From the NCBI RefSeq assembly GCF_034259325.1, contig NZ_JAXIVS010000012.1, positions 186,001 through 250,000 on the forward strand: a stretch of 64,000 nucleotides of DNA, in the 5' to 3' direction. This stretch comes from Hyalangium ruber (GTDB lineage: Bacteria > Myxococcota > Myxococcia > Myxococcales > Myxococcaceae). A program made the position numbers and the translations under genes. Under the pieces are notes generated by a model. That model was not told the origin of the DNA. It did no database searches and worked only from the letters and a program-made list of their open reading frames with translations. Shown one piece after another: positions 1,521 to 17,468 of this stretch. Positions within the stretch are counted from its first letter, which is position 1, and every line of letters starts with the position of its first letter.

Positions 1521-1877
1521 TCACACAGAGGGGGGTTCGTCCACGGTGGGCACTGGAATTTCCGTGCCGCGCAGGCGACCTCTGAACACCGCGGCGCGCA
1601 TCAGGAACACGGTGGTGACCGGTCCGGTGAGTCCCATGAACACCGCGATGAGCAGCGCATGGACGTAGAGCTGCCCGTTCTCGAAGGAGACCTGCACCAC
1701 TGTCGCGAGGGTGAGGCACCAGGTTCCCAGGGTCGCGCCCAAGGTAGGCGCGTGGACGCGCTGGAAGAAGCTCCGCAGGCGCAGAACCCCGAACGATCCG
1801 ATCAGCGCCGCCAGCCCGCCGAGCGCCGCGAGCAGCCCCGTCACCGCATCCACCCACAGAGACGCCGACGCGCTCAT
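1521..1877 (-). CDS. mnhG: Monovalent cation/H+ antiporter subunit G
   Basis: A 118-residue membrane protein with three hydrophobic segments and the typical MrpG core (FGVLRLRSFFQRVHAPT, then a GTWCLTLATV helix and a LLIAVFMGLTGPVTT helix). It is the last subunit of the Mrp Na+(K+)/H+ antiporter, a multi-subunit exchanger in the inner membrane that uses the proton gradient to expel sodium. Its ATG at 1877 overlaps the stop of mnhF by 4 bases (ATGA), which fixes the start and implies translational coupling. Length is normal for the family. Confidence 0.93.
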   Translation of the reverse strand: MSASASLWVDAVTGLLAALGGLAALIGSFGVLRLRSFFQRVHAPTLGATLGTWCLTLATVVQVSFENGQLYVHALLIAVFMGLTGPVTTVFLMRAAVFRGRLRGTEIPVPTVDEPPSV

Positions 1878-2152
1878 TCGATGACCTCTCCGCGCAGGAG
1901 GAACTTGGACATCGCCGTGGAGCCCACGAACCCGAACAGGGCGATCAGGAGGGCCGCCTCGAAGTAGGAGCTGCTGCGGTAGATGAGCCCCAGCGAAAGG
2001 ATGACCAGCATCGTGTTGACGTACAGGCAGTCGAACGCCAACACGCGGTCCTCCGCCCTGGGCCCGAGAATCATTCGTGCGAGGGCCAGCATCATCGCGA
2101 GGGTGAGGCAGCCAAGGGCGAAGGCCAACGGCCAGGAGAGCAGCGGGCTCAT
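1874..2152 (-). CDS. mnhF: Monovalent cation/H+ antiporter subunit F
   Basis: A 92-residue protein with three predicted membrane helices. The ILGPRAEDRVLAFDCL motif is characteristic of MrpF. It sits between mnhE and mnhG with 4-base overlaps at both ends. The small F and G subunits are needed for assembly or function of the Mrp complex but carry no transport site of their own. Confidence 0.93.
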   Translation of the reverse strand: MSPLLSWPLAFALGCLTLAMMLALARMILGPRAEDRVLAFDCLYVNTMLVILSLGLIYRSSSYFEAALLIALFGFVGSTAMSKFLLRGEVIE

Positions 2153-2637
2153 TCGAAGATCTCCTTGAGCGGACTTTCATAACGACGCTTGATGAGCGCC
2201 ACCAGGTCCGCCTCGTTCTGAATGGCGAGGACGTGCAACAACAGGACGCGATTATCCGCCGAGAGCTGGGCCCAGGCAGTGCCTGGCGTGAACGTGACGA
2301 TCATCGCCAGCGCGGCCAACCCGTTCGGATCCCGCAGCTCGAGCGGAACGTGGACGAAGCCAGAGCGGATGTCGCGCGAGCGTCGCGTGAGGATCGCCCA
2401 GGCCACCTCGACGTTCGACCACAACATCTCGAGCAAGACCCGGCCGAACAGGTGTGCCATGACGAGCGGCCTGCGCAACCGCACCGGCGCCGGCCTGAGT
2501 TTCGCGGTCACCGCGGGCCAGAAGATCGCCAGGATGGCGCCGAGCACCAGTGTCCCCGCGCTCAACGACTGCATGAGCAGGATCCAGAGCAGGAACAGCG
2601 CCACCGAGAGCACGGGGGACGGCAGGAGCCACTTCAT
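2149..2637 (-). CDS. mnhE: Monovalent cation/H+ antiporter subunit E
   Basis: A 162-residue protein. Two N-terminal hydrophobic segments are followed by a soluble region with the MrpE hallmarks: VALIKRRYESPLKEIFE at the C-terminus and an ALAMIVTFTPGTAW stretch in the middle. It overlaps mnhD and mnhF by 4 bases each (ATGA). It is a structural subunit of the Mrp antiporter complex. Confidence 0.92.
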   Translation of the reverse strand: MKWLLPSPVLSVALFLLWILLMQSLSAGTLVLGAILAIFWPAVTAKLRPAPVRLRRPLVMAHLFGRVLLEMLWSNVEVAWAILTRRSRDIRSGFVHVPLELRDPNGLAALAMIVTFTPGTAWAQLSADNRVLLLHVLAIQNEADLVALIKRRYESPLKEIFE

Positions 2638-4274
2638 CGCGCGGCCTCCTGCGCCGGGGGCGGCGGCCGCACCGGGGCACCAAGGACCGCGTCGATGTAC
2701 CCGCGGCGATCATAGAGGGACTGCGCCGTCACACGCGCGAGATCCATCGTGGGGGCAGCCGCGATCGTCAGCGCTCCGCACGCGGCGAGGAGTGCCACCA
2801 CCGGGAATCCCTCCGCCGCCCGGACCCGGGGCGGCGCGCGCTGCATCTCCGACCAGAAGGTGCGGATCCCCGTTCGCGTGAGCGCGATGAGGACGAGCAG
2901 CCCGGAACCCAGTAGCCCGCCGGTGAACAGCCAGGCACGGGTGGGAACGCTCCCGGCCTCTTCACGCACCGCGAGCGCCGCCGACAACATGCCGAGCTTT
3001 CCGATGAAGGTGGACAGGGGGGGCAGGCCGGAGAGGAGCAGCGCGCAAGCGACGAATGCCAGCGCCATCAAGGCGGTGGACACGGGGAACGGCAGCGCGA
3101 CGAGCGGCTCCTCCTCGTCATCGAGGTTGACGTCCTGCGCTTCGAGCGTCGCGCTCAGGAAGGGCGCTTCGTCCACGACGGTGGCGCCCGCGCGCCAGCG
3201 CTCCACGATATCGACGAGCAGGAAGAACACGCAGGAGGCGAGCGTGGAGCTCACCAGGTAGAACACCGCGCCGCCGAGGACAGCCTGCTCGCCAAAGCCA
3301 AGCGCCGCCAGGAGCGTCCCAGCGGAGACCACCACCCCCCAGGCCGCCTGAGCAGCGAGCCGATGCGAGGCGATCATCCCGAGGGCCGCGAGCACCGAGG
3401 TGACCAGCCCGAACACGAACAACCCGTCCGCGCCAAATCCCGCCAGCGGTCCCCCGGCGAACATCAGCGTCCAGAGCCGCACCAGCGCGTAGATGCCGAC
3501 CTTCGTCAGCACGGCGAACAGCGCCGCCACGGGTGGAGTCGCCGACGCGTAGGCGGGGACGAGCCAGAAGTTGAGCGGCCAGGCCGCCGCCTTGGCCAGG
3601 AAGGCCACCGCGAGGATGGCCGCTCCCGCGTCGATGAGGTGCCGATTGGCCACCGCCCCCTCGGACAGGCGCGCGGAGAGCTCCGCCATGTTGAGCGTCC
3701 CCGTGATGCCGTAGATCATCGATACGCCGATGAGGAAGAGGGACGAGGCGGCGAGGTTGATGGCCACGTAATGCACACCCGCTCGGACTCGCGGTCTTCC
3801 GGCCCCATGCAGCAACAGGCCGTAGGAGGCGGCGAGCAGGATCTCGAAGAAGACGAAGAGGTTGAAGACGTCTGCCGTGAGGAACGCGCCAGACAGCCCC
3901 ATGAGCTGCAGCTGCGAGAGCGGGTGGAAGTGAACGCCCGCGCGGTGCCAGCGCACGGCGGCGAAGGACAAGGCACAGGCGCCGAGGACCCAGGTCAACA
4001 CCAGCATCACGGCCGAGAAGCGATCCACCGCGAGCGCGATCCCGAAACGCGCCGGCCAGTTGCCGGGCAGGTAGGCCACGACGCCGTATTCCTGTACCCA
4101 CACCAGCAGCGCCGCCGCGACGGCGAGCCCCAGGACCGCGGAGATCATCCCCAGCACCAGCTTGGCGGGGCGCTTCCCCTCCCCCAGGAGGAGCATTGTC
4201 GCCGCCGTCAGCATCGGTAGGAGGATGGGCGCCACAATCAGGTGTGGCATCAGAGCTTGAACGAGCGCCTTCAT
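2634..4274 (-). CDS. mnhD: Monovalent cation/H+ antiporter subunit D
   Basis: A 546-residue polytopic membrane protein of the NADH-quinone oxidoreductase antiporter-like family (NuoL/M/N relatives). A conserved Lys-containing helix is visible in FLAKAAAWPLNFWLVPAYASATPP. MrpD is one of the two large ion-translocating subunits of the Mrp complex. It is some 40-50 residues longer than typical MrpD because of a hydrophilic, acid-rich insert around residues 355-400 (with a DDEEEP run) between two late membrane helices. It lies between mnhC and mnhE with 4-base overlaps. Confidence 0.95.
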   Translation of the reverse strand: MKALVQALMPHLIVAPILLPMLTAATMLLLGEGKRPAKLVLGMISAVLGLAVAAALLVWVQEYGVVAYLPGNWPARFGIALAVDRFSAVMLVLTWVLGACALSFAAVRWHRAGVHFHPLSQLQLMGLSGAFLTADVFNLFVFFEILLAASYGLLLHGAGRPRVRAGVHYVAINLAASSLFLIGVSMIYGITGTLNMAELSARLSEGAVANRHLIDAGAAILAVAFLAKAAAWPLNFWLVPAYASATPPVAALFAVLTKVGIYALVRLWTLMFAGGPLAGFGADGLFVFGLVTSVLAALGMIASHRLAAQAAWGVVVSAGTLLAALGFGEQAVLGGAVFYLVSSTLASCVFFLLVDIVERWRAGATVVDEAPFLSATLEAQDVNLDDEEEPLVALPFPVSTALMALAFVACALLLSGLPPLSTFIGKLGMLSAALAVREEAGSVPTRAWLFTGGLLGSGLLVLIALTRTGIRTFWSEMQRAPPRVRAAEGFPVVALLAACGALTIAAAPTMDLARVTAQSLYDRRGYIDAVLGAPVRPPPPAQEAAR

Positions 4275-4612
4275 GCCTCGGTGCCGTCCACGTGATCAGT
4301 CCCCGCCATCCCACGCGAGGCCAGGATGACGACCAAGAGGAGCGCCGTCATCGCGAAGCCGATGACGATGGCGGTCAACACGAGCGCCTGGGGCACCGGG
4401 TCCGTGTAGTGCGAGAGATCCTGCGGGACCCCCTCCACGAGGATGGGTTCCTTGTCGATGGCGAGGCCCCCGATGCTGAAGATGAAGAGGTTGACCGCGT
4501 AAGAGAGGAGCGACAGGCCGACGACGAGCTGGAACGTGCGAGGCCGGAGCAGGAGCCACACGCCAGAGCCGGTCAGCACTCCGATGGCGATCGCGAGTAC
4601 CACTTCCATCAC
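4271..4612 (-). CDS. mnhC: Monovalent cation/H+ antiporter subunit C
   Basis: A 113-residue protein with three membrane helices, homologous to NuoK. GVWLLLRPRTFQLVVGLSLL and the following NLFIFSIG stretch are typical of MrpC, as is the PLPQALVLTAIVIG-like helix (here PVPQALVLTAIVIGFA). It overlaps the end of the A/B fusion gene and the start of mnhD by 4 bases each. Confidence 0.94.
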   Translation of the reverse strand: MMEVVLAIAIGVLTGSGVWLLLRPRTFQLVVGLSLLSYAVNLFIFSIGGLAIDKEPILVEGVPQDLSHYTDPVPQALVLTAIVIGFAMTALLLVVILASRGMAGTDHVDGTEA

Positions 4613-7500
4613 TCACCTCCCGAGGCTCGGTGCGCGCGGATCGACTGGTGAGCGATCGCCACGAGAATGAGCAACGTGGAGCCCAGCACCAGACAGAACA
4701 CGCCTAGATCGAAAAACGTCGCGCTCCCGATGTGGATCTCGCCCAGGACCGGAGCGTTCACATGGAAGGTATGCGAGGTGAGCAGCGGATAGCCGACCAC
4801 GAATGACCCCGCGGCCGTACCAAGGACCAGCAGGAGCCCGATCCCGATCAGCGCGCGCGGCGCGAGGCGCAGGTGCTCCTCGACCCACTCGGTTCCGGAG
4901 ACGAGGTACTGGAGCAGGAAGCCCACCGACATCACCAACCCCGCCACGAAGCCGCCTCCGGGCGCGTTGTGCCCTCTCAGGAAGAAGAACGTCGCCACCA
5001 CTCCCGTGACGGGCAGGAGCAGGCGAACCAGCACCGCCGGGACCATCAGGTACCCCACCGCGGTGTCCCGCGCCAGACGAGGGTTCACCAGATCCGTCTG
5101 CAAGTCCTTCGGGAGCGCCTGCTGCTGCGGGGGAAGTTCCATGACCTCGGACGCCGGCCGGAAGCGCCGCAGGAGCGCGTAGACCGTGAGCGCGACGAGC
5201 GACAGCACCACGCCCTCCCCGAAGGTGTCGAACCCTCGGAAGTCCACCAGCATCACGTTCACCACGTTCCGCCCTCCCCCTCCGCTCAGGGCGTTCTCGA
5301 GGAAGAACGAGGTGCGTTCGGGGAAGTCTCGCGTCATCACCGCGTACGCCAGGACCGCCATTCCACCGCCGGCACTCAGCGCGATGACGAAGTCGCGAGC
5401 CCGGCGGCCCCTGGCAACCCTCAAGGTGTGCGCATCGAACACGCCGCGGGTCGGCTCTCGCGGCGGAAGCCACCGGAGCCCGAGCAGGATGAGCAGCGTC
5501 GTCACCACCTCAACGGTGAGTTGGGTGAGCGCGAGGTCCGGCGCCGAGAACCAGATGAACGTGACGCAGCACACCGCGCCCGCGGTCCCCGACAGCATGA
5601 GCGCGGCGAGCCGATGGAACTTCGCCTGCCATGCGGCCCCTACCGCCGCCACCCCTCCAATCGCCCACAGCGCGATGAACGTCGGCGAGACAGGCACCAG
5701 GGGGCGCTCCCCCTCCCCAATGCCACCCCACAGCGCCAGGACGCCCACGCTCAGCGTGACCACCACCATCGCCAACACCTGCCGCTGGAGTCCCGCGGTC
5801 AGCAGCCAGCGCCGGGTCCATCTGCTCATGAGCGTGAGCCGCGTCAGCAGGGAGGTGAAGAGCCTCGCCCCATCCAGCCGAGCCAGAACGGGGCCACCGA
5901 GGCGCTCCCGTCTTGCCTCCCACCGCCGGACCGCTCGGTACAACACGCCGCCACCGACGAGCGCCAGCGCGCTCATCAGCAGCGGAGGCGTGAACCCATG
6001 CCATATCTTGAGGCTGTACTCCGGGAGGGGTCCACCTACGACCTGCAAGGCCGCGGCACCGAGGAGCGGCCCGATCGACACCGCGGGCGCGATGCCCACG
6101 ACCAGGCACACGAGGACCAGCACCTCGACAGGAACGCGCATCCACTTGGGCGGCTCCTCCGGGACGCGCGGAGTGTCCCGCGCGCTGGCGGGTCCGAAGA
6201 ACACCTTCGCCGCGAACCGGAGCGAGTAGGCGACGCTGCCCATGCCCGCCAGGGTCGCCGCGATCGGCAGGCCCCATTCGATGGCGGGACTGGCGTTGAG
6301 GAAGACCGTCTCCGCGAAGAACATCTCCTTCGACAGGAAGCCATTGAGCAGCGGGACTCCCGCCATCGCCGCCGTGGCGACGACCGCCAGCGTCCCGGTG
6401 ATGGGCATCAGGCGAAAGAGCCCCGACAACCGCCGGATGTCCCGCGTCCCCGTCTCATGATCGATGATCCCCACAGCCATGAATAGCGAGGCCTTGAAGG
6501 CCGCGTGGTTCATGAGGTGAAACACCGCCGCCACCGCCGCGAGCGGGCTGTTGAGCCCGAGCAGCAGCACCACCAAGCCGAGATGCGAGATGGTGGAGTA
6601 CGCGAGCAGCCCCTTCAGGTCGTGCTGGAACAGCGCCGCTCCCGCGCCGAGCAGCAGCGTGACGAGCCCCGCGGACCCGACGAGCCAGAACCAGGTCTCC
6701 GTTCCCGACAGCGCCGGCCACAGGCGCGCCAGCAGGAACACGCCCAGCTTCACCATCGTCGCCGAGTGCAGATACGCCGACACCGGCGTCGGCGCCGCCA
6801 TCGCGTTCGGGAGCCAGAAATGGAAGGGAAACTGGGCGCTCTTGGTGAACGCGCCGAGGAGGATGAGGCAGAGGGCCACCCGGTAGAGCGGGTGGGCCTT
6901 GATTGCCTCGGAGTTCCTGAGGACGACCTCCAACTCGTAGCTGCCCGCGATCTCGCCGAGCACCAGCAGCCCGGCGAAGAGGCACAGGCCTCCCATCCCG
7001 GTGACCGTGAGCGCCATCCGGGCCCCGCGCTGGGCGTCCTTCCGTTCGTTCCAATAGCCGATCAGCAGGAACGAGAAGAGGGAGGTCAGCTCCCAGAAGA
7101 ACGCCAGCAGCAGCAGGTTTCCCGAGAGGACCACGCCCAACATCGCGCCCATGAAGGCCAGGAGGAACGCGAAGAACCTCGGCACGGGATCCGACGGCGA
7201 GAGGTAGTACCTCGCATACAGCATCACCAGCGCGCCGATGCCCAAGACGAGCATGCAGAACGTCCAGGAGAGGCCATCGAGCCGCAGCACCAGCTCGAGC
7301 CCCAGCGAGGGCACCCACGGGATCCGCTCGACCCACAGGCCACCCCCCTGAACTTTCGGGAAATGGAGCGCCACTCCCACGAGCCCCACCAGGGCGGTAA
7401 GGCCCGCGAGCCCGGCCGCGCGGTTGCGGGCACTCGTGGGCAGCAACGCCGCGATGGCGCCAGAGACCGCGGGAAGGATCAAGAGAGCGAGAAGCGGCAT
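4609..7500 (-). CDS. mnhA: Monovalent cation/H+ antiporter, fused subunits A and B
   Basis: A 963-residue protein. Residues 1 to about 770 are MrpA: many membrane helices, the NuoL-like core with SATMVKLGVFLLARLWP, and a C-terminal extension. The last 140 or so residues are an MrpB domain (HNAPGGGFVAGLV and a final AIAHQSIRAHR). No separate mnhB exists, so this is a group-2 Mrp operon as in Pseudomonas and rhizobial Pha systems. The ATG at 7500 opens with a membrane helix (MPLLALLILPAVSGAIAALL); an upstream ATG at 7587 is open but adds a non-hydrophobic stretch unlike the family. It is the first gene of the operon, and the region 7501-7621 must hold its promoter. Confidence 0.95.
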   Translation of the reverse strand: MPLLALLILPAVSGAIAALLPTSARNRAAGLAGLTALVGLVGVALHFPKVQGGGLWVERIPWVPSLGLELVLRLDGLSWTFCMLVLGIGALVMLYARYYLSPSDPVPRFFAFLLAFMGAMLGVVLSGNLLLLAFFWELTSLFSFLLIGYWNERKDAQRGARMALTVTGMGGLCLFAGLLVLGEIAGSYELEVVLRNSEAIKAHPLYRVALCLILLGAFTKSAQFPFHFWLPNAMAAPTPVSAYLHSATMVKLGVFLLARLWPALSGTETWFWLVGSAGLVTLLLGAGAALFQHDLKGLLAYSTISHLGLVVLLLGLNSPLAAVAAVFHLMNHAAFKASLFMAVGIIDHETGTRDIRRLSGLFRLMPITGTLAVVATAAMAGVPLLNGFLSKEMFFAETVFLNASPAIEWGLPIAATLAGMGSVAYSLRFAAKVFFGPASARDTPRVPEEPPKWMRVPVEVLVLVCLVVGIAPAVSIGPLLGAAALQVVGGPLPEYSLKIWHGFTPPLLMSALALVGGGVLYRAVRRWEARRERLGGPVLARLDGARLFTSLLTRLTLMSRWTRRWLLTAGLQRQVLAMVVVTLSVGVLALWGGIGEGERPLVPVSPTFIALWAIGGVAAVGAAWQAKFHRLAALMLSGTAGAVCCVTFIWFSAPDLALTQLTVEVVTTLLILLGLRWLPPREPTRGVFDAHTLRVARGRRARDFVIALSAGGGMAVLAYAVMTRDFPERTSFFLENALSGGGGRNVVNVMLVDFRGFDTFGEGVVLSLVALTVYALLRRFRPASEVMELPPQQQALPKDLQTDLVNPRLARDTAVGYLMVPAVLVRLLLPVTGVVATFFFLRGHNAPGGGFVAGLVMSVGFLLQYLVSGTEWVEEHLRLAPRALIGIGLLLVLGTAAGSFVVGYPLLTSHTFHVNAPVLGEIHIGSATFFDLGVFCLVLGSTLLILVAIAHQSIRAHRASGGE

Positions 7501-7621
7501 CTTCTCTACTCCCGAGTCATCTTGGGCATCGCGCCACCATGCGCAACCCCACCGCGCGTTACAAGCGAAAGGAGCGGTGACGGTCACGATGGTTGAATGT
7601 GTGGCAGACCCGGCATGGCCC

Positions 7622-9751
7622 TCAGGGATGCGCGATCACGATGAGCGTCGGCGCCCGAGCCTCGACGCACGCCATCACCTTGCGCATGGTCACGGGATCC
7701 AGCGCTCCGAACGCCTCATCGAGCACCACGATCCTCGCCCGCTGCAGCAGCGCCCGCGCCACGAAGACGCGGCTCTGCTCCCCATGCGAGAGCTGCCAGC
7801 CGCTCTCGCCGACCATCTGCATCAACCCGGAGGGCATCCGGGAGAGCAGCTCCCCCAGTCCCAGCTCCTCGCAGAGTGCTCGTGCGACCCGTAGGTCCTC
7901 GGGAGTAGGAGGCCAGGCCCGTCCTAACAGCAGGTTCATGGCCAGCGTGCCGGACACCACATAGTTCTCGTGGAATTGAGGAGCACCGGCGATCTGCGCG
8001 CCCCACCCGTCCGTCGTCCAGGTCGCCCTGTCCAGGCCTCCCAGCAGCAACAACCCCGAGCCCTGGCCCCGCAGCCCCGTCAGGATGGAGGCAAACGTCG
8101 ACTTGCCCGAGCCCGAGGGCCCCTCCAGGAGCACGCGTTCACCCGAGCGCACCACCAACGACGCCCCTTCGAGCACCGCTCGGGGCGATCCCGGATGCCG
8201 GAACGCGAGATCACGCACCTCCAGCAAGGCCTGCTCTTCCGGAAGCGCCGCGCCTGGCGAGAGCGGAGACGCCCCGGGTACACCTTCGGAGCACTTCGCG
8301 GCCTTCAGGATGGGGCGGACGCTGCGAAACAGCACGCGCGCCCCCAGCAGGGCCAGGGAGCCGACGGTGAGCGCCCCCACGGCGCGCGCCGCCATGAGCG
8401 CTGCCCCTACCCCCACAGCAATCCTGGCCGCTGGGGCTCCCGCGAGCACGCCTGGCAGCGTGGCGAGGATCGCCACCGGCAGGAGACCCCTTCGCGCGAG
8501 CGTCATCACCCGCGCCGTGGACTCGTCCCACTGCTCGGAGGCCTTGGCATAGTGCGCCAGCTCCTGATCCTCCTCGTCATGCCATCGCTCTGGTTGCTCC
8601 TGCGCGAGCCGCGTCCGGTAGCCGAGCATCCGCTCGATGAGCGCATGCGTCATACCCACCCGAGCCTCCGTCCACCTGCGGAAGAGCAACGCCTGGCGGG
8701 CGACAAGCACCGCCATCCCGCAGCAGAAGCCCCCCAGCGCCACCAGCCCGTATCCGCCCGCCGGGCCCGCCGCCATGACACTCGCCGCCATCACCAGATC
8801 GATCACCGCCAGGACGCTGGCGAAGCTGCCAGCCAGCGACATCTGTTCCAGTCCCGCGCTCTCGTAGGTCCTCCCGACGTACTCGCCAATGCCGCCGCGC
8901 CGCGCCTCGTCCACGGGCAGGGCGAGCGCCCCCGCCAGCAGCTGCCTGCGCAGCAGCGCGGAGAGGTCCATCACCAGCGTTCCCTGGACCCAGGCCAGCG
9001 CCGCCTGGAGCGGCACCATCGTCAACCCCATGAGGGCCCACGCCCAGAGCCACCCCGGGTCCAGCTGTCCCTCGAAGGCGCCCCGCCCAATCAACCACCA
9101 CATGGAGAGCACGCCCGCCTGGATGACGCCCGCGAGCAGGAGGAGCAACAGCAGCCGCCATCCACCGCGCAGCGCCCGCAGGTGATGGCGCAGGCGGGCT
9201 CCGGGTGGCAGCCGGAGCGTGCGCCCGGCGACGAGGTAGGTATTGGCGAGCTGGAGCCCCAGCAACGCCCGCCGGGCCGTGGCCCGCTGAGGACCCCTCA
9301 GCCCCGTTCGCTCCAGGACACGATCGGCCACGGGGCCCTGGTGCCCCTCGGCGCGCGCCCGCACGGCCGCTGTCAGCGTGGAGAAAGGCACCTTGTGCAG
9401 CGACTCATCGGGGGCGATGAGCCGCGCGGTCTGCCCCGAGGACGACACGCGCAGCAGGGCAACCACCGCACTCCCCTGGGTGCTCACGACCTCCACGAGC
9501 GCGGGAGCCGCACGTCCCAGAGGCGTCTCGACTTCGCCGTGGCGCGTGTAGAGCAGCTTCAGCTCGAGCCCCAGGGCATGGGCCGCCGCGTCCAGCCACT
9601 CTCCCACGCGGCTCGGATCCTCTGGCACCGCGTGGGACAGAGCCGGGAGCGGGTTGGGCAGAGGCAACCGCGCCGCACGCGCCAAGGCTTCCAAGGCCTC
9701 GCCCGCACGCTCGATGGGCCAGGCCACTGCTTCCAGTGTCTCCTCCGACAT
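7622..9751 (-). CDS. ABC transporter permease/ATPase, second component of an NHLM-like peptide exporter
   Basis: A 709-residue protein with a soluble N-terminal region of about 190 residues, a six-helix membrane domain (about 200-480), and an ABC ATPase domain at the end. Walker A is GPSGSGKST, the signature is LSHGEQ, and Walker B is RIVVLDEAFGALD. The long soluble N-terminus before the membrane domain is the layout of the second ABC protein of NHLM bacteriocin export systems (TIGR03797 type). The chain stops at VIAHP, right after the H-loop histidine, so the usual C-terminal 30-40 residues of the ATPase are absent. The start at 9751 lies 5 bases past the stop of the peptidase-ABC gene, with which it surely forms an operon. 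The substrate is presumably a small peptide; that is inference. Confidence 0.75.
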   Translation of the reverse strand: MSEETLEAVAWPIERAGEALEALARAARLPLPNPLPALSHAVPEDPSRVGEWLDAAAHALGLELKLLYTRHGEVETPLGRAAPALVEVVSTQGSAVVALLRVSSSGQTARLIAPDESLHKVPFSTLTAAVRARAEGHQGPVADRVLERTGLRGPQRATARRALLGLQLANTYLVAGRTLRLPPGARLRHHLRALRGGWRLLLLLLLAGVIQAGVLSMWWLIGRGAFEGQLDPGWLWAWALMGLTMVPLQAALAWVQGTLVMDLSALLRRQLLAGALALPVDEARRGGIGEYVGRTYESAGLEQMSLAGSFASVLAVIDLVMAASVMAAGPAGGYGLVALGGFCCGMAVLVARQALLFRRWTEARVGMTHALIERMLGYRTRLAQEQPERWHDEEDQELAHYAKASEQWDESTARVMTLARRGLLPVAILATLPGVLAGAPAARIAVGVGAALMAARAVGALTVGSLALLGARVLFRSVRPILKAAKCSEGVPGASPLSPGAALPEEQALLEVRDLAFRHPGSPRAVLEGASLVVRSGERVLLEGPSGSGKSTFASILTGLRGQGSGLLLLGGLDRATWTTDGWGAQIAGAPQFHENYVVSGTLAMNLLLGRAWPPTPEDLRVARALCEELGLGELLSRMPSGLMQMVGESGWQLSHGEQSRVFVARALLQRARIVVLDEAFGALDPVTMRKVMACVEARAPTLIVIAHP

Positions 9752-9756
9752 GAGCG

Positions 9757-12441
9757 TCACCCCTCCTCCACGGCCCGCTCGGAGAGCACGCCTTGATCCA
9801 GGACCAGCCGCCTCCATCCCTCTCGCCCCGAGAGATCCCGTCGCATCCCCGCCTCCAGCTCCAGCAAGGCGCGATAGTGGGAGTCCTCCCGCGCCGCGAG
9901 CGTCCGAGGGTTCCCATCCTCGACCAGCGTCCCCTCCTGGATGACCAGGACACGATCGAACGAGAGCGTCTCGGCGATGTCATGCATGACGCAGAGCAAG
10001 GTGGCGCCCTTCACACCCTGCCGGGCCCGCTCCAGCAGCTCCGCGCGACGGTCACGCTCGAGCCCTCGGAACGGCTCATCGAAGATGGCCAGCCGCACCC
10101 CGGGGCGCAGTAACGCTCGGCCCAAGCGCACCCGCTGCCCCTCACCGCCTGACAACAACCCCCCCCCCTCTCCCAGCCGGGTCTGAAGCCCCTGGGGCAG
10201 CTTGTCGAGCACCTCGACGAGGTCGGCCCTGTGCAGCACCTGCCCCACCCGGGGCAGCGCCTCGCCCGCTTCGACTCCGTAGGCGAGGTTGTCCACCATC
10301 GACTTGTTCCAGAGCATCACCTCGGGCTCCACCCACGCCGTCTCCCGCCTCAGCCGCCACAACGCCGCTCCCTCCAGCGGCTCTCCATCCACCTCGACCC
10401 GGCCGCTGGCTGCCCGGTGCCACCCCAGCAGCACTCCCACCAGCGAGGACTTCCCAGCGCCCGAGGGGCCCACGATGGCGACGTGCTCCCCGGCTCGAAC
10501 CGAGACATCCACTCCCTGCAACAACGTGTGGCCAGAGGCTTTCACCTCCACCTGGCGCAATGAGAACGCCACTCCCCGTGCCACCTCCGCCGGTGGCTCC
10601 GTCTGCCTCCGTGCGGCCAGCGCGACGTGCGGAGCTACCTCGTCAGGAGCCAGCAGCGGCTCCATCAGGCGACCGGTGAGCGACGACGCGGCGGGGTACT
10701 GGCGCAACCCGTCGGCGAGCTGCCGGCCCAGCCCCGTCATCGCCAGCGCCCAGTAGACGAGCAGCAGGACCGCCCCAGGTTGTACTCCCCGCGAGAGCGC
10801 GTGCAGGACCACCGCCACCGCGCCCACGGTGGCGGCGAGCGAGCAGATCGTGTCGACGGTGATGCCTCGGCGCAGCAAGGTGCGCGCCGCGGAGACGAAG
10901 TGGTGCAGCGGCTCCTCATGGGCCCGGCGCAGCGTCAGCTCGGCACGGTGTGCCCGCAGCGCTACCCCCCCGCGCAGTGCATCGAGGTAGAAGCGCGAGA
11001 GCACACCGTCGAAGTCCCGTAGCCGGCGGTCGGCATCGAGCAGCGAGCGCTGCGCGAGCAAGGGAATGGCGATCGCCAGCCCGCCCGTCAGGAAGATCAA
11101 GGGCGCGCTTCGCGGTGCCAACCATGTCAGCCCCGCGAGTGTCACCAGCAGCTCGGCACAGCCGCGCAGCAAGAGGACCGCGAGGCTCGGCACCGCGCGC
11201 ACCATGTGGATGCCATGGCAGCGCTGAGCCATGTCCGAGACGAGCCGGCTGCGAAAATAGCGATCTCCCAAGCGGGGGATCTTCCCGAGGAACGCGAGCC
11301 GAAGGCGGAGTTCCAGGCGCCTCCCCAGTTGGAGCGTCCCGCGTGAGAGTGGCAGTTCCAGCATGAACAGCAGTCCCAGCAACGCGAGCAGCGTCGCGAC
11401 GCCGACGATCCGCTGCTCCGGAGTCGTGAGGTAGCGCCCCGCGTCGATGATCCCGCGCAGGAGCAGCGCCTCCACGAAGCCTCCCACCGCCGCGGTGACC
11501 CCGATGGCGGCAAGCACCGCCGGCTTGAGCACCCCGTCCCGGCGCAACAAGGCCACGAGCTCACGGAGCGGGCGGGTGGGGGCCTCGCGCAAAGCCGCCT
11601 CGAGTTCCGGAGACAGCGGCGGTGCATCGCTCCCTCTCTCGCCGCGCAGCCCCTTGGCCTGAACGCACACGCTCCCGCGAAGGGTGAGTTCATCGGCGCC
11701 CGGCTTCCCCAGTGCTGTCCAATAGATGGTGGGGATGAGTTCCTCGGCGCGCCCCTCCTCCAGGGCCGTCAGCACTTCGGGCAGGAGTTGCTCGACAAAC
11801 CTCGCGGCCAGCTCACCCCGCTTCAGGCCATCGCCGTCCACGAGCGTCTGCGCCAACCGCACCGTCGCATCCAGGCATGCCAGGCGCTTCCAGGTGGGGT
11901 CCCCGAGCGCCTCCTTGACCAGCCGCTCGGACGTGGGCCCGGCCGCGAGCACCGACAGCCTGCGACGCAGCCCCACCAGGAACTCCTCCGTGCCAGCCCA
12001 TTCGCGGAACGCCCCGGCGGACACGGTCATCGTGTGGATGAAGAGCCGGTCGAGCAGCTCGTCCACGGACACCCAGCGCCGCCCCAGCGCCGGATCCATG
12101 ATCTGAACGAGGTGGCCCCACTTCTTCCAGACCACCACGAAGTGCAGGTTGCCGTCCTCCAGCCGCACCACCACGATGGCCGGCAGTACCCCTGCTCCGG
12201 CCAGGAGCACATGATCCCGCGGGACCATGTGCTGCTCCGCCTCCAACCCCAGCTTGCCGGCCAGCTCCTCGAGCACATCAATGGAGGTGCCATCGACGTC
12301 GCTCTGACAGGCCTCGCGAAGCCTTCCATAGCTGATGGCCACGCCGAAGCCTTCGAGCAGGGCCTTGAGGGCCGCCGGGCCGCAGTCCATGGCCGAGGTC
12401 TGGATGACCTCCGGGACGAAGAGGCGCGGGGACCCGGTCAT
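9757..12441 (-). CDS. Peptidase C39-containing ABC exporter (PCAT) for peptide maturation and export
   Basis: An 894-residue protein. Residues 1-145 form a C39 cysteine-peptidase domain with all expected residues visible: Gln14, Cys20 in QTSAMDCGPA, His100 in NLHFVVVW and Asp116 in IMDPALG. Such domains cut leaders after a Gly-Gly or Gly-Ala pair during export. A poorly conserved insert of about 150 residues follows, then an ABC membrane domain (about 305-610) and an ATPase domain with GPSGAGKSS, signature LSGGE, and Walker B LAIFDEP. It is longer than the roughly 700 residues usual for PCATs because of the insert. The Q-loop region reads VEPEVMLW and lacks the expected Gln. It overlaps the upstream HlyD gene by 4 bases. 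Confidence 0.85.
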   Translation of the reverse strand: MTGSPRLFVPEVIQTSAMDCGPAALKALLEGFGVAISYGRLREACQSDVDGTSIDVLEELAGKLGLEAEQHMVPRDHVLLAGAGVLPAIVVVRLEDGNLHFVVVWKKWGHLVQIMDPALGRRWVSVDELLDRLFIHTMTVSAGAFREWAGTEEFLVGLRRRLSVLAAGPTSERLVKEALGDPTWKRLACLDATVRLAQTLVDGDGLKRGELAARFVEQLLPEVLTALEEGRAEELIPTIYWTALGKPGADELTLRGSVCVQAKGLRGERGSDAPPLSPELEAALREAPTRPLRELVALLRRDGVLKPAVLAAIGVTAAVGGFVEALLLRGIIDAGRYLTTPEQRIVGVATLLALLGLLFMLELPLSRGTLQLGRRLELRLRLAFLGKIPRLGDRYFRSRLVSDMAQRCHGIHMVRAVPSLAVLLLRGCAELLVTLAGLTWLAPRSAPLIFLTGGLAIAIPLLAQRSLLDADRRLRDFDGVLSRFYLDALRGGVALRAHRAELTLRRAHEEPLHHFVSAARTLLRRGITVDTICSLAATVGAVAVVLHALSRGVQPGAVLLLVYWALAMTGLGRQLADGLRQYPAASSLTGRLMEPLLAPDEVAPHVALAARRQTEPPAEVARGVAFSLRQVEVKASGHTLLQGVDVSVRAGEHVAIVGPSGAGKSSLVGVLLGWHRAASGRVEVDGEPLEGAALWRLRRETAWVEPEVMLWNKSMVDNLAYGVEAGEALPRVGQVLHRADLVEVLDKLPQGLQTRLGEGGGLLSGGEGQRVRLGRALLRPGVRLAIFDEPFRGLERDRRAELLERARQGVKGATLLCVMHDIAETLSFDRVLVIQEGTLVEDGNPRTLAAREDSHYRALLELEAGMRRDLSGREGWRRLVLDQGVLSERAVEEG

Positions 12442-13619
12442 GACTTCGGCTCCCGCCCTTCGGGAGCTCCGCCTCGCCTCGCCTCCCGGCCCAAGGTTCG
12501 AAGCACGAGCTGTGACGGCGTCGCCCGGTCCACCTCGATGTCCACCATGCCCGGCAGCCCGTGTTCGAGCGGAATGCCCAGCGGCAGCTCATCCAGCGAG
12601 AGCTCCACGCGCACCAGACCATCGCGAACCTCGCTCGCCACCGCCACCACCGTGGCCTTCAACATGCCGAACTCCGTCCAGGAGAAGCCCTCCAACCGCA
12701 TCCGCGCCCGCTGCCCCGCCCGTACCCTCCCCAGGGATGAGGCCGGGATGAACTGCGCGACGATGCGCACCGAGCCCCCCGCGACGACCGTGGCGATGGG
12801 GTCTCCCTCCCTGAGCTGCGCGCCCACTCGCACGGAGCTCGTCTCGCCGAGCACACCATCCGCCGGCGCTCGAATGATGCGGCGCTCCAGTTCCTCGCGC
12901 AGGCGCGCCACGCTGGCACGCGCCACGCTCTCGTCCGCCTCGAGTCGGGCGATCTCTCCCCGCAGCGCGGCGAGGCGGGTGCGCCGCTCGGTGGATTGCA
13001 CCGTGCCGCCCAACCTCGCGCTCGCCAACGCGGCTCGCGAGGCCTGCTCGGCGGCCAGGGTGCGCTCCAGCTCCGCGCGGGCCCTGCCCCACTCCATCTC
13101 GCTCACCACCCCCCGTTTCCAGAGCCGCTCGGTGCTCGTCGCCTCTTCCTGGGCGCGCCGCGACACCGTCTCCGCCTCGCTGAGCCGGGCCCGCGCCTCC
13201 TGAACTCCCGCGACCCCCTGCCCCTTTTGCTCCACCAGCGCGCTCTGCTCCGCCTCGAGCTGAGCGCGCGCTGCCTCGAGCTGCGGCCCCAGGCCTTGGA
13301 GCACGGCCTCTGCCTCCGCGACCTGGCGCTCCTCGTGCTCACGTGACAGCTCGACGAGGACCTCCCCCGCATGCACGGAGCGGTGAAGCTCCAGCTGCGT
13401 CTTCACCACCCGCCCCTCCACGGGTGAATCAATGGCATACACCTCGCGATGGAGCTCCAGCCGCGCCTGCACGCTGCGCTCGTAGACCGTGGTGGGCGCC
13501 AGCGTGAACCAGCCTCCCCAAAGCGCGAACAGCCCTACCGGCAACAGCCCGAACGCCCACCGTCCTCGCCCTCGGGCCAGCGCGCGCAAGGTACGTGGGA
13601 AAATGCCTTCGACCTTCAT
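12438..13619 (-). CDS. HlyD-family membrane fusion protein of the peptide exporter
   Basis: A 393-residue periplasmic adaptor. A single membrane anchor lies at about residues 18-40 (FGLLPVGLFALWGGWFTL). It is followed by a biotinyl-lipoyl-like half-motif (YAIDSPVEGRVV), a long Ala/Glu/Arg-rich coiled coil (about 95-225), the second half-motif (RIIRAPADGVLG), and a beta-barrel end. It links an inner-membrane exporter to the outer membrane. It is the first gene of the three-gene minus-strand export operon and overlaps the PCAT start by 4 bases. Its start at 13619 faces the divergent gene at 13791, so 13620-13790 holds promoters for both arms of the locus. Confidence 0.85.
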   Translation of the reverse strand: MKVEGIFPRTLRALARGRGRWAFGLLPVGLFALWGGWFTLAPTTVYERSVQARLELHREVYAIDSPVEGRVVKTQLELHRSVHAGEVLVELSREHEERQVAEAEAVLQGLGPQLEAARAQLEAEQSALVEQKGQGVAGVQEARARLSEAETVSRRAQEEATSTERLWKRGVVSEMEWGRARAELERTLAAEQASRAALASARLGGTVQSTERRTRLAALRGEIARLEADESVARASVARLREELERRIIRAPADGVLGETSSVRVGAQLREGDPIATVVAGGSVRIVAQFIPASSLGRVRAGQRARMRLEGFSWTEFGMLKATVVAVASEVRDGLVRVELSLDELPLGIPLEHGLPGMVDIEVDRATPSQLVLRTLGREARRGGAPEGREPKS

Positions 13620-13790
13620 GGAGGCCCCCGCTTCGACTCCGCCCTCCAGGGCATAGAGCCGAGCCAGCCGGCCTTGTGAGGAACTTCAGTGCTCCCGGGG
13701 AATCAGCCCGCTCGTCCTGCCAGCAACCCTTCCGAGAGGGCTTCTCATCACAGGGGCCTCGCTCCGGACTCCATCGACCCGAGGAACTCC

Positions 13791-15578
13791 ATGAGTGAGA
13801 ACGCCGCGTCGGTCGACCCCCATGAGATGCTGTACCTGCCCCTTCGGCGTCGCTTCATGAGCGAGTACGTGGACACCCCCGAAGGCACCAAGGAGCTGCG
13901 CCTCTTCTTCGGCTTCAAGGAGATCTCGTTCGATGAACCGGAGCTGTTCTCCTTTGGCGAGACACTGATCAAGCAGGAACAGTTCATGGCGGGCAGCGCC
14001 ACCACATGGAGCTCGGGTGAGCCCCTTCCGTGGGAGCGCGTGAAGAACATGCTCGAAGCGTTGCTGAACGAGGAGGTTCTCTCACGCGAACCCCCGAAGC
14101 CCCCTCCCGAGAGCGAGCACCATCGGAAGATGCTGGAGGCCGAGGCCCTACGGGACGCGCCTACCGAGCCCCTGTGGTGGAACCCGGACTGCCCGCGTGT
14201 CATGGAGCGCCTGGTGGGCCGGCCGCTGGAGCTGGGCTTCCTCGAGTCGGTGCTCCCTGTCCACCGCATTGCCCACCCCGCGTTCGACGCCGAGGGCCGC
14301 CACGTCGGAGAGAGCAACGTCTTCCCCGATGCCATGCGCATGAAGCTCCAGACGGAGTGGCGCGTGTGCCGCTACCCGGGCAGCCGCTATCTCAACGAGG
14401 CGCTGATGAACCTGACCGCGCTCAAGGCGATGACGCGGTACTGGAAGCCCATTCTGCAGGAGGTGCTGGAGGTGCGCGCGGAGTTCCTGCGCCGCTATCC
14501 CCCGCCTCCAGACGGAAGCTGGCGGATGGGAGACCTTCACGCCATGGCCTACTCGGTGCTGGCCCTGCCAACCTTGATGCTGATGCGCGCGAACGCCCCC
14601 GTCCCCAACGGCGCGTTGGATCCCGTGCTGTCCTCCCTGTTCCGGGTGACGGATGGCGTGCGGATGGTCACGGCCTATCTGCTCTTCCTGCCGGAAATGC
14701 CGATGACGTACGACACGCCCATGACGGCAGCCGAGCTGTTCCGCGTCACGGAGCATGACAACCACTTCATCTCGAACCGGGGCGTCTGCGCCGGCCCGCA
14801 ACTCATGGTGGAGGAGTTCTTCGGGACGCTGCTGGATGGCAAGCCCGTGGCGAACGCGCCCCCGCCCCAGGCAGCGTGGGACGCCGAGATCCCCGCCGCG
14901 GTGGATTACGCGCTCCACGGGCTGAAACTCTATTGTCTCCAGTTCAATCTCTGGAGCCACATGTGCCGCGCCTACGAGCTGATTCGCGCGGCGCTGCTCG
15001 AGGTGGAGGATGCGCCAGAGAGCGTCCTGGGCCGGCTGCGCGCGCGCATCGAGCGCGATTGGCAGCACATCCTGCCCACCCGCTTGAACCAGTCCACCCA
15101 ACGAGATTGGGCCGAGGCCCGCTACATCGAGATGTTCGACCAGGCCCAGCGTGGCCTGAGGGGCTTCCGAGAGGACGCGCGGATGCACCTGCGGGACGCA
15201 TTCACCCCTGCCAGGGATGAGGTGGATGAGAATGCCCGGCGGCAGCTCCAGGAGCTGCTCCGCACGCGCGCGGGGTCGCTCTCCGAGGCTCGAAGGCACG
15301 CCCTCGATGCCGTGGCGAATACCCTCGCGGGGTATCTGGCTATCGAGCGCTCAACGCTACGGGCCCTGGAGAACGTTCAGCGACAGGTCAATGCATTGCT
15401 CCAACGCCCCCACCCGGCGCGGAAGTTCTCCAATACGGACCTCTCACTCCATCACCGCCTGCGCGTCGGCACCATCGGAGTGCTGCCCTACTTGCCGGAG
15501 GTGTTCCGAGACGAGCTGGGTATCGCCATCGAGAACACGGAGGATGCCACCCGCTTCAGCCCCATCAGCTCTGCCTGA
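13791..15578 (+). CDS. Unknown 595-residue protein of a candidate RiPP locus
   Basis: I do not recognise this family. The ATG at 13791 is preceded by GAGGAA at 13781-13786. The protein has no signal peptide or membrane segment and looks like a soluble cytoplasmic protein. Residues 1-95 alternate short beta and helical segments (RLFFGFKEISF, then LPWERVKNMLEALLNEEVLS), which could be a small winged-helix peptide-recognition (RRE-like) fold; this is a guess from pattern only. The rest is mostly helical, with histidine-containing stretches (HRIAHPAFDAEGRH, TEHDNHF). It is the first gene of the plus-strand arm, 78 bases upstream of the small peptide gene, so a role in modifying or escorting that peptide is plausible but unproven. 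Confidence 0.6.
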   Translation: MSENAASVDPHEMLYLPLRRRFMSEYVDTPEGTKELRLFFGFKEISFDEPELFSFGETLIKQEQFMAGSATTWSSGEPLPWERVKNMLEALLNEEVLSREPPKPPPESEHHRKMLEAEALRDAPTEPLWWNPDCPRVMERLVGRPLELGFLESVLPVHRIAHPAFDAEGRHVGESNVFPDAMRMKLQTEWRVCRYPGSRYLNEALMNLTALKAMTRYWKPILQEVLEVRAEFLRRYPPPPDGSWRMGDLHAMAYSVLALPTLMLMRANAPVPNGALDPVLSSLFRVTDGVRMVTAYLLFLPEMPMTYDTPMTAAELFRVTEHDNHFISNRGVCAGPQLMVEEFFGTLLDGKPVANAPPPQAAWDAEIPAAVDYALHGLKLYCLQFNLWSHMCRAYELIRAALLEVEDAPESVLGRLRARIERDWQHILPTRLNQSTQRDWAEARYIEMFDQAQRGLRGFREDARMHLRDAFTPARDEVDENARRQLQELLRTRAGSLSEARRHALDAVANTLAGYLAIERSTLRALENVQRQVNALLQRPHPARKFSNTDLSLHHRLRVGTIGVLPYLPEVFRDELGIAIENTEDATRFSPISSA

Positions 15579-15656
15579 AAATAATTCCATCACACGGGCT
15601 CCCTTCCTCACTCATTCGGAATGAACCCCAACGCAACACCCAGGAGGAGCAAACAC

Positions 15657-15791
15657 ATGAAGATCAAGACGACCGTTCGTGGTGGCCTCGCGCTCATCGA
15701 CCCCACGGTTTACCCCGGTGGTTATGGTGGCCGCGGGTGCCCGGGTGGTGGCGGCTACCCCATCCGCAAGCTGACCTACCTGGTGCCGTAA
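15657..15791 (+). CDS. Tyr/Gly-rich 44-residue peptide, candidate RiPP precursor
   Basis: An open frame from ATG 15657 to TAA 15789-15791, with a near-consensus ribosome site AGGAGG at 15642-15647 and a 9-base spacer. The peptide begins MKIKTTVRGG and ends YPIRKLTYLVP. It contains Gly-Gly pairs at 9-10, 21-22 and 24-25, a run of four Gly at 30-33, Tyr at 19, 23, 34 and 41, and one Cys at 28. GG pairs are the cleavage sites of C39 peptidases such as the one encoded at 9757-12441. Cutting after Gly22 would leave a 22-residue Tyr/Gly-rich product. Glycine codons are often GGT, unlike the neighbouring genes, which supports it being a genuine, selected gene. No known precursor family is recognised. 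Confidence 0.7.
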   Translation: MKIKTTVRGGLALIDPTVYPGGYGGRGCPGGGGYPIRKLTYLVP

Positions 15792-15827
15792 TCCAGGTCG
15801 GCGGCGGCCGCGGGTGATTCGAGTCGT

Positions 15828-15853
15828 CAGTGGGCGCCAGGCTGCGCCCGCTG
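15828..15853 (+). terminator. Hairpin between peptide gene and peroxidase gene
   Basis: Bases 15828-15837 pair with 15844-15853 in a 10-bp stem with one G-T wobble and a 6-base loop, followed by GCGGCTTTGTCTTTG. It lies 36 bases after the peptide stop. This could be a partial terminator that keeps peptide mRNA abundant relative to the peroxidase downstream, as is common for bacteriocin precursor genes. The U-tract is imperfect, so read-through is likely. Confidence 0.5.
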
Positions 15854-15968
15854 GCGGCTTTGTCTTTGTGGAGTAACCCTCCCTTGCAGAGCCTCCAGGA
15901 CGATTTCGGCTCACAGATGCGTCGAGCACTCTCCGTCTCGGTTGCAGGCACTACCCGGAGGAAAATCG

Positions 15969-17468
15969 ATGCCCTCAATTCATGGTCGTCTGGTGCGCAA
16001 TGGAGAAGGAACTCCGATGGGGCAGTTCGTCCCCTCGGGCAAATTCGGCAGGATCTTCCCGACACTGCAGCCGCTGATCCCGCCGCTGGCCGCGTTGGAG
16101 GAGCTCGGCCGCGCGATGAAGGATGCCAACCCCGCGGACCCCAAGGGAGACAACGAAGACATCCCCGCGGGCTTCACCTACCTGGGCCAGTTCATCGACC
16201 ACGACATCACCTTCGACACCACCTCCATCCAGGAGGTGCAGGTCGACCCGTTGGCCCTGCACAACTTCCGCACGCCCGCGCTCGATCTGGACTGCGTTTA
16301 TGGCCGAGGTCCGGGCGACCAGCCCTACCTCTACCAGCTGCCTCCCAATGACGCGCTCTTCCTCATCGGGACCACCAGCGCCAACACGCCGGGCGGCGAT
16401 CCGAAGGTACAGACTTCGCTGCCGTTCGACCTGCCGCGAGGCCCGCAGTCGCTGGCCATCATCGGGGACCCTCGCAACGACGAGAACCTCATCGTCGCCC
16501 AGCTGCACCTGGCATTTCTCCGCTTCCACAACAAGGTGGTCGCGGGGCTTCAGAACGGCACCATCACGCCTCCGCCCTCCGCGACCCAGTCCTCCCTCTT
16601 CGAGCAGGCCCGCCGGCTCGTCACCTGGCACTACCAGTGGATCGTCGTGAACGACTTCCTGCGAAAGGTGGTGGATCCGCACGTACTCGACCACGTGCTC
16701 GAGCGCGGCCGGGCGTTCTACCTGCCGAAGGGTGATGCCTTCATCCCCGTGGAGTTCTCCGCCGCCGCCTACCGCCTGGGCCACAGCATGGTGCGCGAGG
16801 CCTATGACTTCAACGAGGTGTTCACCTTCAAGCCCAGCCCGCGCCAGGTGGTGCCGGCGACGCTCCAGCTGCTGTTCAACTTCTCCGGGCGCTCCGGCGT
16901 GGGCGTGCCGATCCCCAGCGATTGGATCATCGACTGGCGGCGGTTCTTCCGGTTCCCCAACGACGGGGTCACGGCCGGTCTCAGCCGCAGGCTCGACCCG
17001 TTCCTGGCGCCGACACTCGCGGAGATCCCCGACCACGGCGTGCTGCCCGGCGTCAACCTGCCCATCGCCAACCTCAAGCGCGGGCGCAGCCTCGGCCTGC
17101 CCTCCGCGCAGAACGTGGCCCGGCGCATGCGCATCGAGCCGCTCTCGCCCAAGGACATCGCCAAGGGGCCGGATGGCGCGGTCGCCGAGAAGCACAACCT
17201 GCACGTCGAGACCCCGCTCTGGTACTACATCCTCAAGGAGGCCGAGCAGCGCGGCGGCGCCAAGCGCCTGGGGCCCGTGGGCAGCCGCATCCTGGCCGAG
17301 GTCTTCGTGGGCCTGCTCGAGCTGGACGCGAGCTCCTACCTGGCCAGCAACCCGCAGTGGAAGCCCACCCTGCCCTCGGCCAAGAAGGGCGACTTCGCGA
17401 TGACGGATCTGCTCTCCTTCGCGGGAGACCTGTCGCCGATCAACGATCCGAAGAACGTGAAGCCCTGA
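15969..17468 (+). CDS. Animal-type haem peroxidase
   Basis: A 499-residue protein of the animal haem peroxidase (myeloperoxidase/peroxidasin) superfamily. Distal motif FTYLGQFIDHDITFD carries the distal His and adjacent Asp. FRTPALDLDCVYG is the calcium-loop/haem-linked region, and AAYRLGHSMVREAY carries the proximal His. GGAGG at 15957-15961 sets the ATG at 15969; an upstream in-frame ATG at 15942 lacks a site. There is no signal peptide. Members oxidise halides or phenols with H2O2, and animal relatives cross-link tyrosines. Placement 177 bases after a tyrosine-rich peptide gene suggests oxidative tailoring of that peptide, which is my inference. It converges on the next gene with a 4-base gap. 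Confidence 0.85.
   Translation: MPSIHGRLVRNGEGTPMGQFVPSGKFGRIFPTLQPLIPPLAALEELGRAMKDANPADPKGDNEDIPAGFTYLGQFIDHDITFDTTSIQEVQVDPLALHNFRTPALDLDCVYGRGPGDQPYLYQLPPNDALFLIGTTSANTPGGDPKVQTSLPFDLPRGPQSLAIIGDPRNDENLIVAQLHLAFLRFHNKVVAGLQNGTITPPPSATQSSLFEQARRLVTWHYQWIVVNDFLRKVVDPHVLDHVLERGRAFYLPKGDAFIPVEFSAAAYRLGHSMVREAYDFNEVFTFKPSPRQVVPATLQLLFNFSGRSGVGVPIPSDWIIDWRRFFRFPNDGVTAGLSRRLDPFLAPTLAEIPDHGVLPGVNLPIANLKRGRSLGLPSAQNVARRMRIEPLSPKDIAKGPDGAVAEKHNLHVETPLWYYILKEAEQRGGAKRLGPVGSRILAEVFVGLLELDASSYLASNPQWKPTLPSAKKGDFAMTDLLSFAGDLSPINDPKNVKP

Follow-up and report, generated by a model that had tools for sequence, protein, structure and literature searches.

Introduction

In pathways to ribosomally synthesised and post-translationally modified peptides (RiPPs), the RiPP recognition element (RRE) of proteins such as LynD, McbB and TbiB1 binds the leader of the precursor as a β strand between β3 and α3. 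For exporters with a C39 peptidase domain, PMC10885120 describes substrate leaders that carry a double Gly, with hydrophobic positions at −4, −7 and −12, and it gives leaders of the Nif11/nitrile-hydratase type more than 70 residues. Here we analyse positions 7622-17468 of a 64,000-nt stretch of the Hyalangium ruber genome ("the window" below means the whole stretch). In this region the genes for an HlyD-type adaptor, a C39 peptidase-ATP-binding cassette (C39-ABC) exporter and a second ABC protein (ABC2) lie beside those for a 595-residue protein (U595), a 44-residue peptide and an animal-type haem peroxidase. An earlier note on this DNA had assigned the modification of the peptide to the peroxidase. 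Our analysis points to U595 instead, and we consider it probable that the peptide and U595 belong to a RiPP-type family of their own.

The comparison set comprised 195 genomes of the myxobacterial phylum. Beyond the phylum, the distribution covers one contig scan with one protein, which gave five close loci, together with plasmids and viral contigs. Relatives of U595 were fetched with about 9 kb on each side; G numbers denote genomes and L numbers fetched stretches.

Results

A peptide family with a common leader accompanies U595

We found relatives of U595 in 32 of the 195 genomes. The closest of them, group A (59-100% identity), number 24 copies in 14 genomes. Each of the 24 stretches (the window and 23 other loci) holds, within about 7 kb of U595, a small gene whose product starts with M[KQ][IV]K[TS]x[VI]R[GAS]G; in G119, G128 and G131 it stands about 7 kb off, on the far side of the exporter genes. 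A degenerate DNA pattern for this leader matched in 16/195 genomes, against 0/195 for its reversed control. The 16 genomes are the 14 with group A, together with G028, where a U595 relative is present, and G008, where none was found; outside group A the pattern occurs in just 2 of 181 genomes. Within genus g19, 9 of 27 genomes have a group A U595 and exactly those 9 have the leader; the two also coincide in genus g3, in 4 of 6 genomes. Because the pattern and its control differ in this way and the leader is present in all 24 group A stretches, the peptide goes beyond what chance would give. Judged by this comparison, the 44-codon gene, which is preceded by AGGAGGAG, is a real gene of a family with a leader and a variable core, and its reading as a precursor in the earlier note stands.

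The combination of constant leader and variable core that characterises RiPP precursors was found over 98 distinct peptides. These were chosen by leader motif, so that leader conservation among them is partly by construction, with the core figures unaffected; the leader was also seen without the motif filter, among the small genes listed around the loci. Pairwise differences between leader codons fell 33/14/53% on codon positions 1/2/3, figures that make no selection test because the rows were motif-chosen. A double-glycine site at residues 9-10 (Gly-Gly or Ala-Gly) is common to the family. Cleavage had been proposed after Gly22 or Gly10; Gly10 is the likely site, whereas Gly22 is disfavoured because the shared pair stands at 9-10, also without the motif filter.

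The precursor genes can form arrays: the loci of G116, G117 and G120 hold 14 leader-pattern matches each. G138 has 23 leader-pattern genes in its genome (L121-L126, L133), several of them in stretches without U595. In G008 (L114-L118), MKIKTNIKAG-like leaders are scattered over the genome with very different, Cys-free cores, and a related exporter stands some 6 kb from one of these peptides. Orphan peptides (L119:9016-9197 and L120:9245-9304) start with MKVKT[HN]IRGG, followed by FNPQPDPPG or LNPQPEPPG, in stretches with neither U595 nor exporter.

The conserved core feature is a single cysteine after arginine

We surveyed the cores in 40 stretches (the window, L036-L059 and L119-L133; those of G008 and G028 were left out), which yielded 107 distinct gene copies for the 98 distinct peptides. 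Exactly one Cys is present in 93 of the 98 peptides, three in one and none in four, the latter being one group B peptide and three orphans of the NPQPDPP/NPQPEPP type from G061 and G062. Among the 94 Cys-bearing peptides, 89 have Arg at −2 of the Cys (R-x-C), and the positions flanking the Cys are most often Gly, as in RGCGGG; in the window peptide the R-x-C segment is R26-G27-C28. Tyr is absent from 69 of the 98 peptides. The window peptide alone has four and represents the extreme, and a G066 peptide has three. On the evidence of this survey, the conserved core feature is the single Cys after Arg and not tyrosine, and the tyrosines once proposed as the modified residues turn out to be peculiar, in their number, to the window copy.

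U595 relatives fall into three homologous groups

Besides group A, we distinguished group B (about 36% identity, 23 genomes besides G028) and group C (three members of 26-28% identity, matching only from about residue 162 onward); in G156 only a short piece of U595 matched. A profile built from group C alone picks up the other two groups, at best E values of 2e-44 for group A and 6e-29 for group B; the three groups are therefore homologous. A sister form of the peptide, MKIK[IL]HVRGGPKAR, sometimes one residue longer, was present in 8/8 group B stretches examined, divergently upstream of HlyD and with a core of 4-5 residues, and the pattern MKIKxHVRGGP marks exactly the 23 group B genomes among the 195 (control 0). 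At these loci an outer-membrane efflux protein comes before U595 and an APH-type kinase after it (Pfam on L067, taken as representative; L060 shows the same arrangement by eye). Four peptides were found in G028, their cores including MKIR and VLVKGR. Counted with overlaps, the leader or U595 loci of groups A and B and G028 come to at least 38 of the 195 genomes; without overlap they come to 30.

When 28 U595 proteins (24 of group A and 4 of group B type) were placed in a quick tree, leader residue 6 sorted without exception by the four group A clades, as T/A, N, R and K, with Shimodaira-Hasegawa-like approximate likelihood ratio (SH-aLRT) supports of 97, 94, 100 and 99. This match between leader residue and U595 clade fits leader recognition by U595. 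When neighbouring genes at the 24 group A loci were clustered, U595 was found at 24, the exporter genes at 13-14 and the next gene at 8, all of these in g19. Since only U595 and the exporter genes recur widely, U595 is the sole candidate for a modifying protein.

The group C members have other neighbours. In G135 two Cupin_8 proteins and a protein arginine methyltransferase (PRMT)-like methyltransferase are nearby, an arrangement that by inspection recurs in G124; the G101 member is accompanied by Cupin_8, ATP-grasp ligase and M28 peptidase genes. The PRMT-like and Cupin_8 neighbours might suggest a role in N-oxidation, by analogy only, with streptozotocin biosynthesis as the model. The plasmid search for U595 relatives returned one distant match, in Burkholderia arboris (NZ_CP101526.1, L134:9446-13272). 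This relative is without the RRE-like part, and its neighbours are metallo-beta-lactamase-like, Cupin_8, thioesterase and non-ribosomal peptide synthetase (NRPS)-like genes, the last recognised by eye. No U595 relative was found in the viral contigs.

U595 combines a predicted RRE-like domain with a helical domain

An AlphaFold2 model of U595 (mean predicted local distance difference test score, pLDDT, 85.5; predicted template modelling score, pTM, 0.79) has a winged-helix domain at about residues 6-101. In comparisons with VIA-align, in which Z below 8 may reflect merely a common arrangement, the top scores went to the winged helices of MINA53 and NO66 (Z 9.6 and 7.4), followed by McbB (6gri; Z 6.3, 77 aligned, 2.7 Å), TbiB1 with leader (5v1v; Z 6.1, 80 aligned, 3.2 Å) and LynD (4v1u; Z 5.3, 75 aligned, 2.9 Å). 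The domain thus has, in the predicted model, the winged helix of about 80-90 residues seen in solved RREs, aligned in order, and we predict it to be RRE-like. Its strands come before its helices, the opposite of the order worded for the RRE in PMC7470986, where helices come before strands. No match to the PqqD/RRE family was obtained in the Pfam and NCBIfam scans, and no JmjC domain was found in U595. The domain is modular: group C has no match to it, and a similar piece ends another protein in G156. That protein (L071:3017-4399) has 460 residues and no Pfam match, and its C-terminus resembles the U595 N-domain at E 2.4e-5.

In Pfam and NCBIfam, the sole matches to U595 were two Pfam models (E 0.12-0.19), far under the cut-offs, and the 44-codon peptide matched no family. 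Modelled alone, the helical domain reached pLDDT 88.3 and pTM 0.91. Foldseek and VIA against the PDB and Foldseek against viral models gave nothing convincing for it, a result that does not by itself make the fold new; the best VIA row was a helical bundle (Z 5.4, 152 aligned, 6.0 Å). C193-x-Y-x-G-S-R, VCAGP and E519-R520 are common to groups A, B and C in the alignment. VCAGP resembles the Cys loop of cytochromes P450; no P450 is among the rows listed for either model, and haem is not claimed.

The exporter has an intact C39 site and a wider distribution than U595

The exporter protein scored 72.4 bits with Peptidase_C39 and 79.2 bits with ABC_tran (Pfam), both over the cut-off. Besides Cys20, His100 and Asp116, already reported as intact in the earlier note, Gln14 is intact as well, giving the Gln/Cys/His/Asp set together with an ABC ATPase. 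The peptide leader ends in GG or AG and has V/I at −4; its −7 residue is K and it has no −12. The start codon of ABC2 is uncertain, an internal Met23 being possible, and homologues align from about residues 15-19 or from 1-5.

With the N-terminal third of the C39-ABC protein as query, relatives of the exporter were found in 41/195 genomes. Eleven of these 41 are without a group A or B U595, and the leader is found in just one of them, G008; it accordingly tracks U595 more closely than it tracks the exporter. By these counts the exporter family is wider than the U595-peptide system. Group A loci include one such exporter locus per genome, and leader-type peptides range from one to more than 20 per genome, so a single exporter probably serves all the leader-type peptides of a genome.

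Other exporters were seen in passing. Five stretches (L180-L184, from G112, G122, G127, G132 and G126) have related HlyD/C39-ABC/ABC2 genes, the C39-ABC protein at 48-50% identity, without U595. Neighbours there include a JmjC_2 protein (Pfam, L181), an AurF-like protein (L180, under the Pfam cut-off) and an enterochelin-esterase-like protein (L183), and these loci are possibly another exporter-linked system. The genome of the window itself has a second, more distant exporter beside a WD40-like protein (G000:C5, L185:7897-13974), and G090 (L190) has a similar locus with an FGE-sulfatase-like gene.

Discussion

Proposed mechanism

We think it probable that the locus represents a RiPP-type family working as follows. 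The N-terminal, RRE-like domain of U595 would bind the leader MKIKTTVRGG, after which the helical domain would modify the core, in group A most likely at Arg-x-Cys. The C39 domain would cut the leader after Gly10, and the HlyD/C39-ABC/ABC2 complex would secrete the core. The proposal builds on what the sequences display: a peptide family that tightly co-occurs with U595, leader types that correspond to the U595 clades, and an intact C39 site. The cut and the export follow established knowledge of C39 exporters. The catalytic role of U595, the residue it targets, the site of cleavage, secretion and any activity of the product are all inferred.

Several points weigh against this proposal. Modification, leader binding and cleavage are here predictions from sequence. 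The RRE matches, at Z 5.2-6.3, fall in the caution range, with the MINA53 winged helix higher (9.6), and a sequence profile of the N-domain found no RRE in a PDB profile search. The match of leader to clade could look alike under plain co-inheritance. G008 has leaders and a related exporter, with U595 not detected. A divergent G069 member seems, by eye, to be without C193 and GSR. As to the target, the NPQPDPP-type orphans are without Cys, two of the three without Arg as well, and the cores of group B and G028 (PKAR, LTKIR, VLVKGR) are Cys-free, so that Cys cannot be the target throughout.

The chief rival to U595 as an enzyme is that it is a non-catalytic, leader-binding escort or adaptor (or a self-protection protein), the peptides leaving the cell in unmodified form and serving as signals or bacteriocins. 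C39 systems commonly export double-glycine peptides that carry no modification. The helical domain gave no family, cofactor motif or recognised fold in the scans made, and in G008 leader and exporter occur where U595 was not detected. On the other hand, 10 of the 24 group A copies stand with a peptide and with no exporter genes in the fetched stretches, and group C, without a match to the RRE-like part, is found near Cupin_8, PRMT-like, ATP-grasp or NRPS-like genes, which is a biosynthetic setting. The residues invariant over groups A-C (C193, GSR, VCAGP and E519-R520) also look like an active site. We consequently regard the escort as unlikely, if the most serious of the alternatives, and U595 as the likely modifying protein in preference to the peroxidase.

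The peroxidase model, in which the enzyme cross-links or halogenates the four peptide tyrosines, is very improbable and as a general mechanism is not supported. What it has in its favour is a gene that starts 177 bases downstream of the peptide on the same strand, and the tyrosines of the window and G066 peptides. A terminator-like hairpin lies between the two genes (a weak point, as about one is expected by chance), and most peptides of the family are Tyr-free. Peroxidase relatives occur in 21 of 189 genomes searched, and in 0 of 36 stretches with U595 relatives, including those of the 23 other group A copies. Unrelated partners, which the earlier note had named in advance as telling against its model, are what the six closest relatives have (79-85% identity; G066, G062, G095, G061, G064 and G097): 6/6 of their stretches are without any other gene called in window bases 1-40,000. 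The G066 peroxidase is 2 Mb from U595, and G095 and G097 have the peroxidase with neither U595 nor leader. The check proposed in the earlier note, whether a small Tyr/Gly peptide and a peroxidase always flank homologues of the 595-residue protein, came out positive for a peptide, in 24/24 loci, but for the peroxidase in none of the 23 loci outside the window, and Tyr was not conserved. We therefore rejected the peroxidase as the modifying enzyme. It appears to be an incidental neighbour, eye-catching and misleading, although a recent recruitment special to this genome is possible.

Least probable of all is membership of the known NHLM (nitrile hydratase/Nif11 leader) system, which shares the three-gene exporter layout and supplies, in NHLM_micro_ABC1, the best NCBIfam match of the C39-ABC protein, but which we rejected because all three exporter proteins score far under the cut-offs of TIGR03794/03796/03797 (HlyD 31.2 vs 156.2, C39-ABC 165.6 vs 853.3 and ABC2 94 vs 709.4 bits), neither peptide nor U595 has a meaningful Pfam or NCBIfam match, and the leader of 10 residues is short beside the Nif11/nitrile-hydratase type.

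If U595 is the modifying enzyme, as we favour, one protein of unrecognised type would define a RiPP family, bringing with it a protein family whose fold is unrecognised. With just two genes, the system lends itself directly to testing by co-expression. More tentatively, and with considerable doubt, U595 may belong to a new superfamily of natural-product enzymes, whose RRE-bearing members act on ribosomal peptides and whose RRE-free group C acts on free or carrier-bound amino acids. Group A would then act on R-x-C cores, group B on tiny cores such as Pro-Lys-Ala-Arg, and group C in clusters of NRPS-like or amino-acid-ligase type, where PRMT-like methyltransferases and Cupin_8 proteins are its neighbours, with Arg in or beside the target as a common theme.

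Gene content of the locus

The genes listed for this region in the earlier note are all present and intact (Table 1). The adjoining segment of the window at 1874-7587, beside the exporter genes, is by eye an ordinary Mrp-type cation/proton antiporter operon.

Table 1 Features of the locus, with positions in the window.
Feature	Position	Strand	Basis or remark
Second ABC protein (ABC2), permease + ATPase	7622-9817	-	PF00005, 63.2 bits; C39 domain not found
C39 peptidase-ABC exporter	9757-12441	-	PF03412 + PF00005; Q14, C20, H100, D116
HlyD-type periplasmic adaptor	12438-13619	-	PF13437, 50.3 bits; same stretch as U595 in 14/24 group A loci
U595, 595-residue protein: predicted RRE-like N-terminal domain + helical domain of unrecognised fold	13791-15578	+	Relatives, models
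RRE-like (winged-helix) domain of U595, ~residues 6-101	13806-14093	+	Predicted structure
Helical domain of U595, residues 128-595	14172-15575	+	Alignments; C-x-Y-x-G-S-R (C193), VCAGP (C333) conserved
Precursor peptide MKIKTTVRGG-LALIDPTVYPGGYGGRGCPGGGGYPIRKLTYLVP, 44 aa	15657-15791	+	Gene call + family comparison
Leader MKIKTTVRGG, predicted cut after Gly10	15657-15686	+	Leader common to family
Terminator-like stem-loop, peptide/peroxidase gap	15821-15860	+	Weak: 1 in scanned 4 kb vs 1.2 expected in shuffles
Animal-type haem peroxidase	15969-17468	+	An_peroxidase, 77.8 bits, over the cut-off; earlier in-frame TTG at 15942

Comparison with known systems

Searches of the literature, with subscription papers mostly outside them, gave no match to the leader and core strings and, among the titles and abstract openings covered, no description of a U595-peptide family. 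The statement of the earlier note that it knew no described class joining such parts agrees with this, and the peptide family is apparently undescribed and myxobacterial.

Like the animal-type haem peroxidases (PF03098), of which it is a member, the downstream gene product belongs to a known family, but no relative stretch examined links that family to the peptides. MINA53 and NO66, the ribosomal oxygenases, share with the U595 N-domain the winged helix that is its top fold match and differ in the JmjC domain. With the NHLM-type bacteriocin export systems the locus shares HlyD, a C39-peptidase ABC protein and a second ABC protein, so that "NHLM-like" holds for the layout; it does not hold for the model scores, and the peptide has no NHLP/Nif11 leader. 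Peptidase-containing ABC transporters (PCATs) with double-glycine leaders are matched in the intact Gln/Cys/His/Asp set, the GG/AG leader end and the hydrophobic −4, whereas the leader here is too short for a −12 and has Lys, not a hydrophobic residue, at −7. The RRE-containing RiPP proteins LynD, McbB and TbiB1 are matched in the predicted RRE-type winged helix at one end of a larger protein and in the adjoining precursor with leader and variable core. Unlike them, U595 has a fused domain without a Pfam or NCBIfam family or solved-fold match, the leader is just 10 residues long, and no further modifying enzyme recurs at the loci. The RiPP plan, the C39 exporter type and the NHLM-like layout are thus already known, and on our best reading the novelty lies in a new protein family and in the RiPP-type family that it defines.

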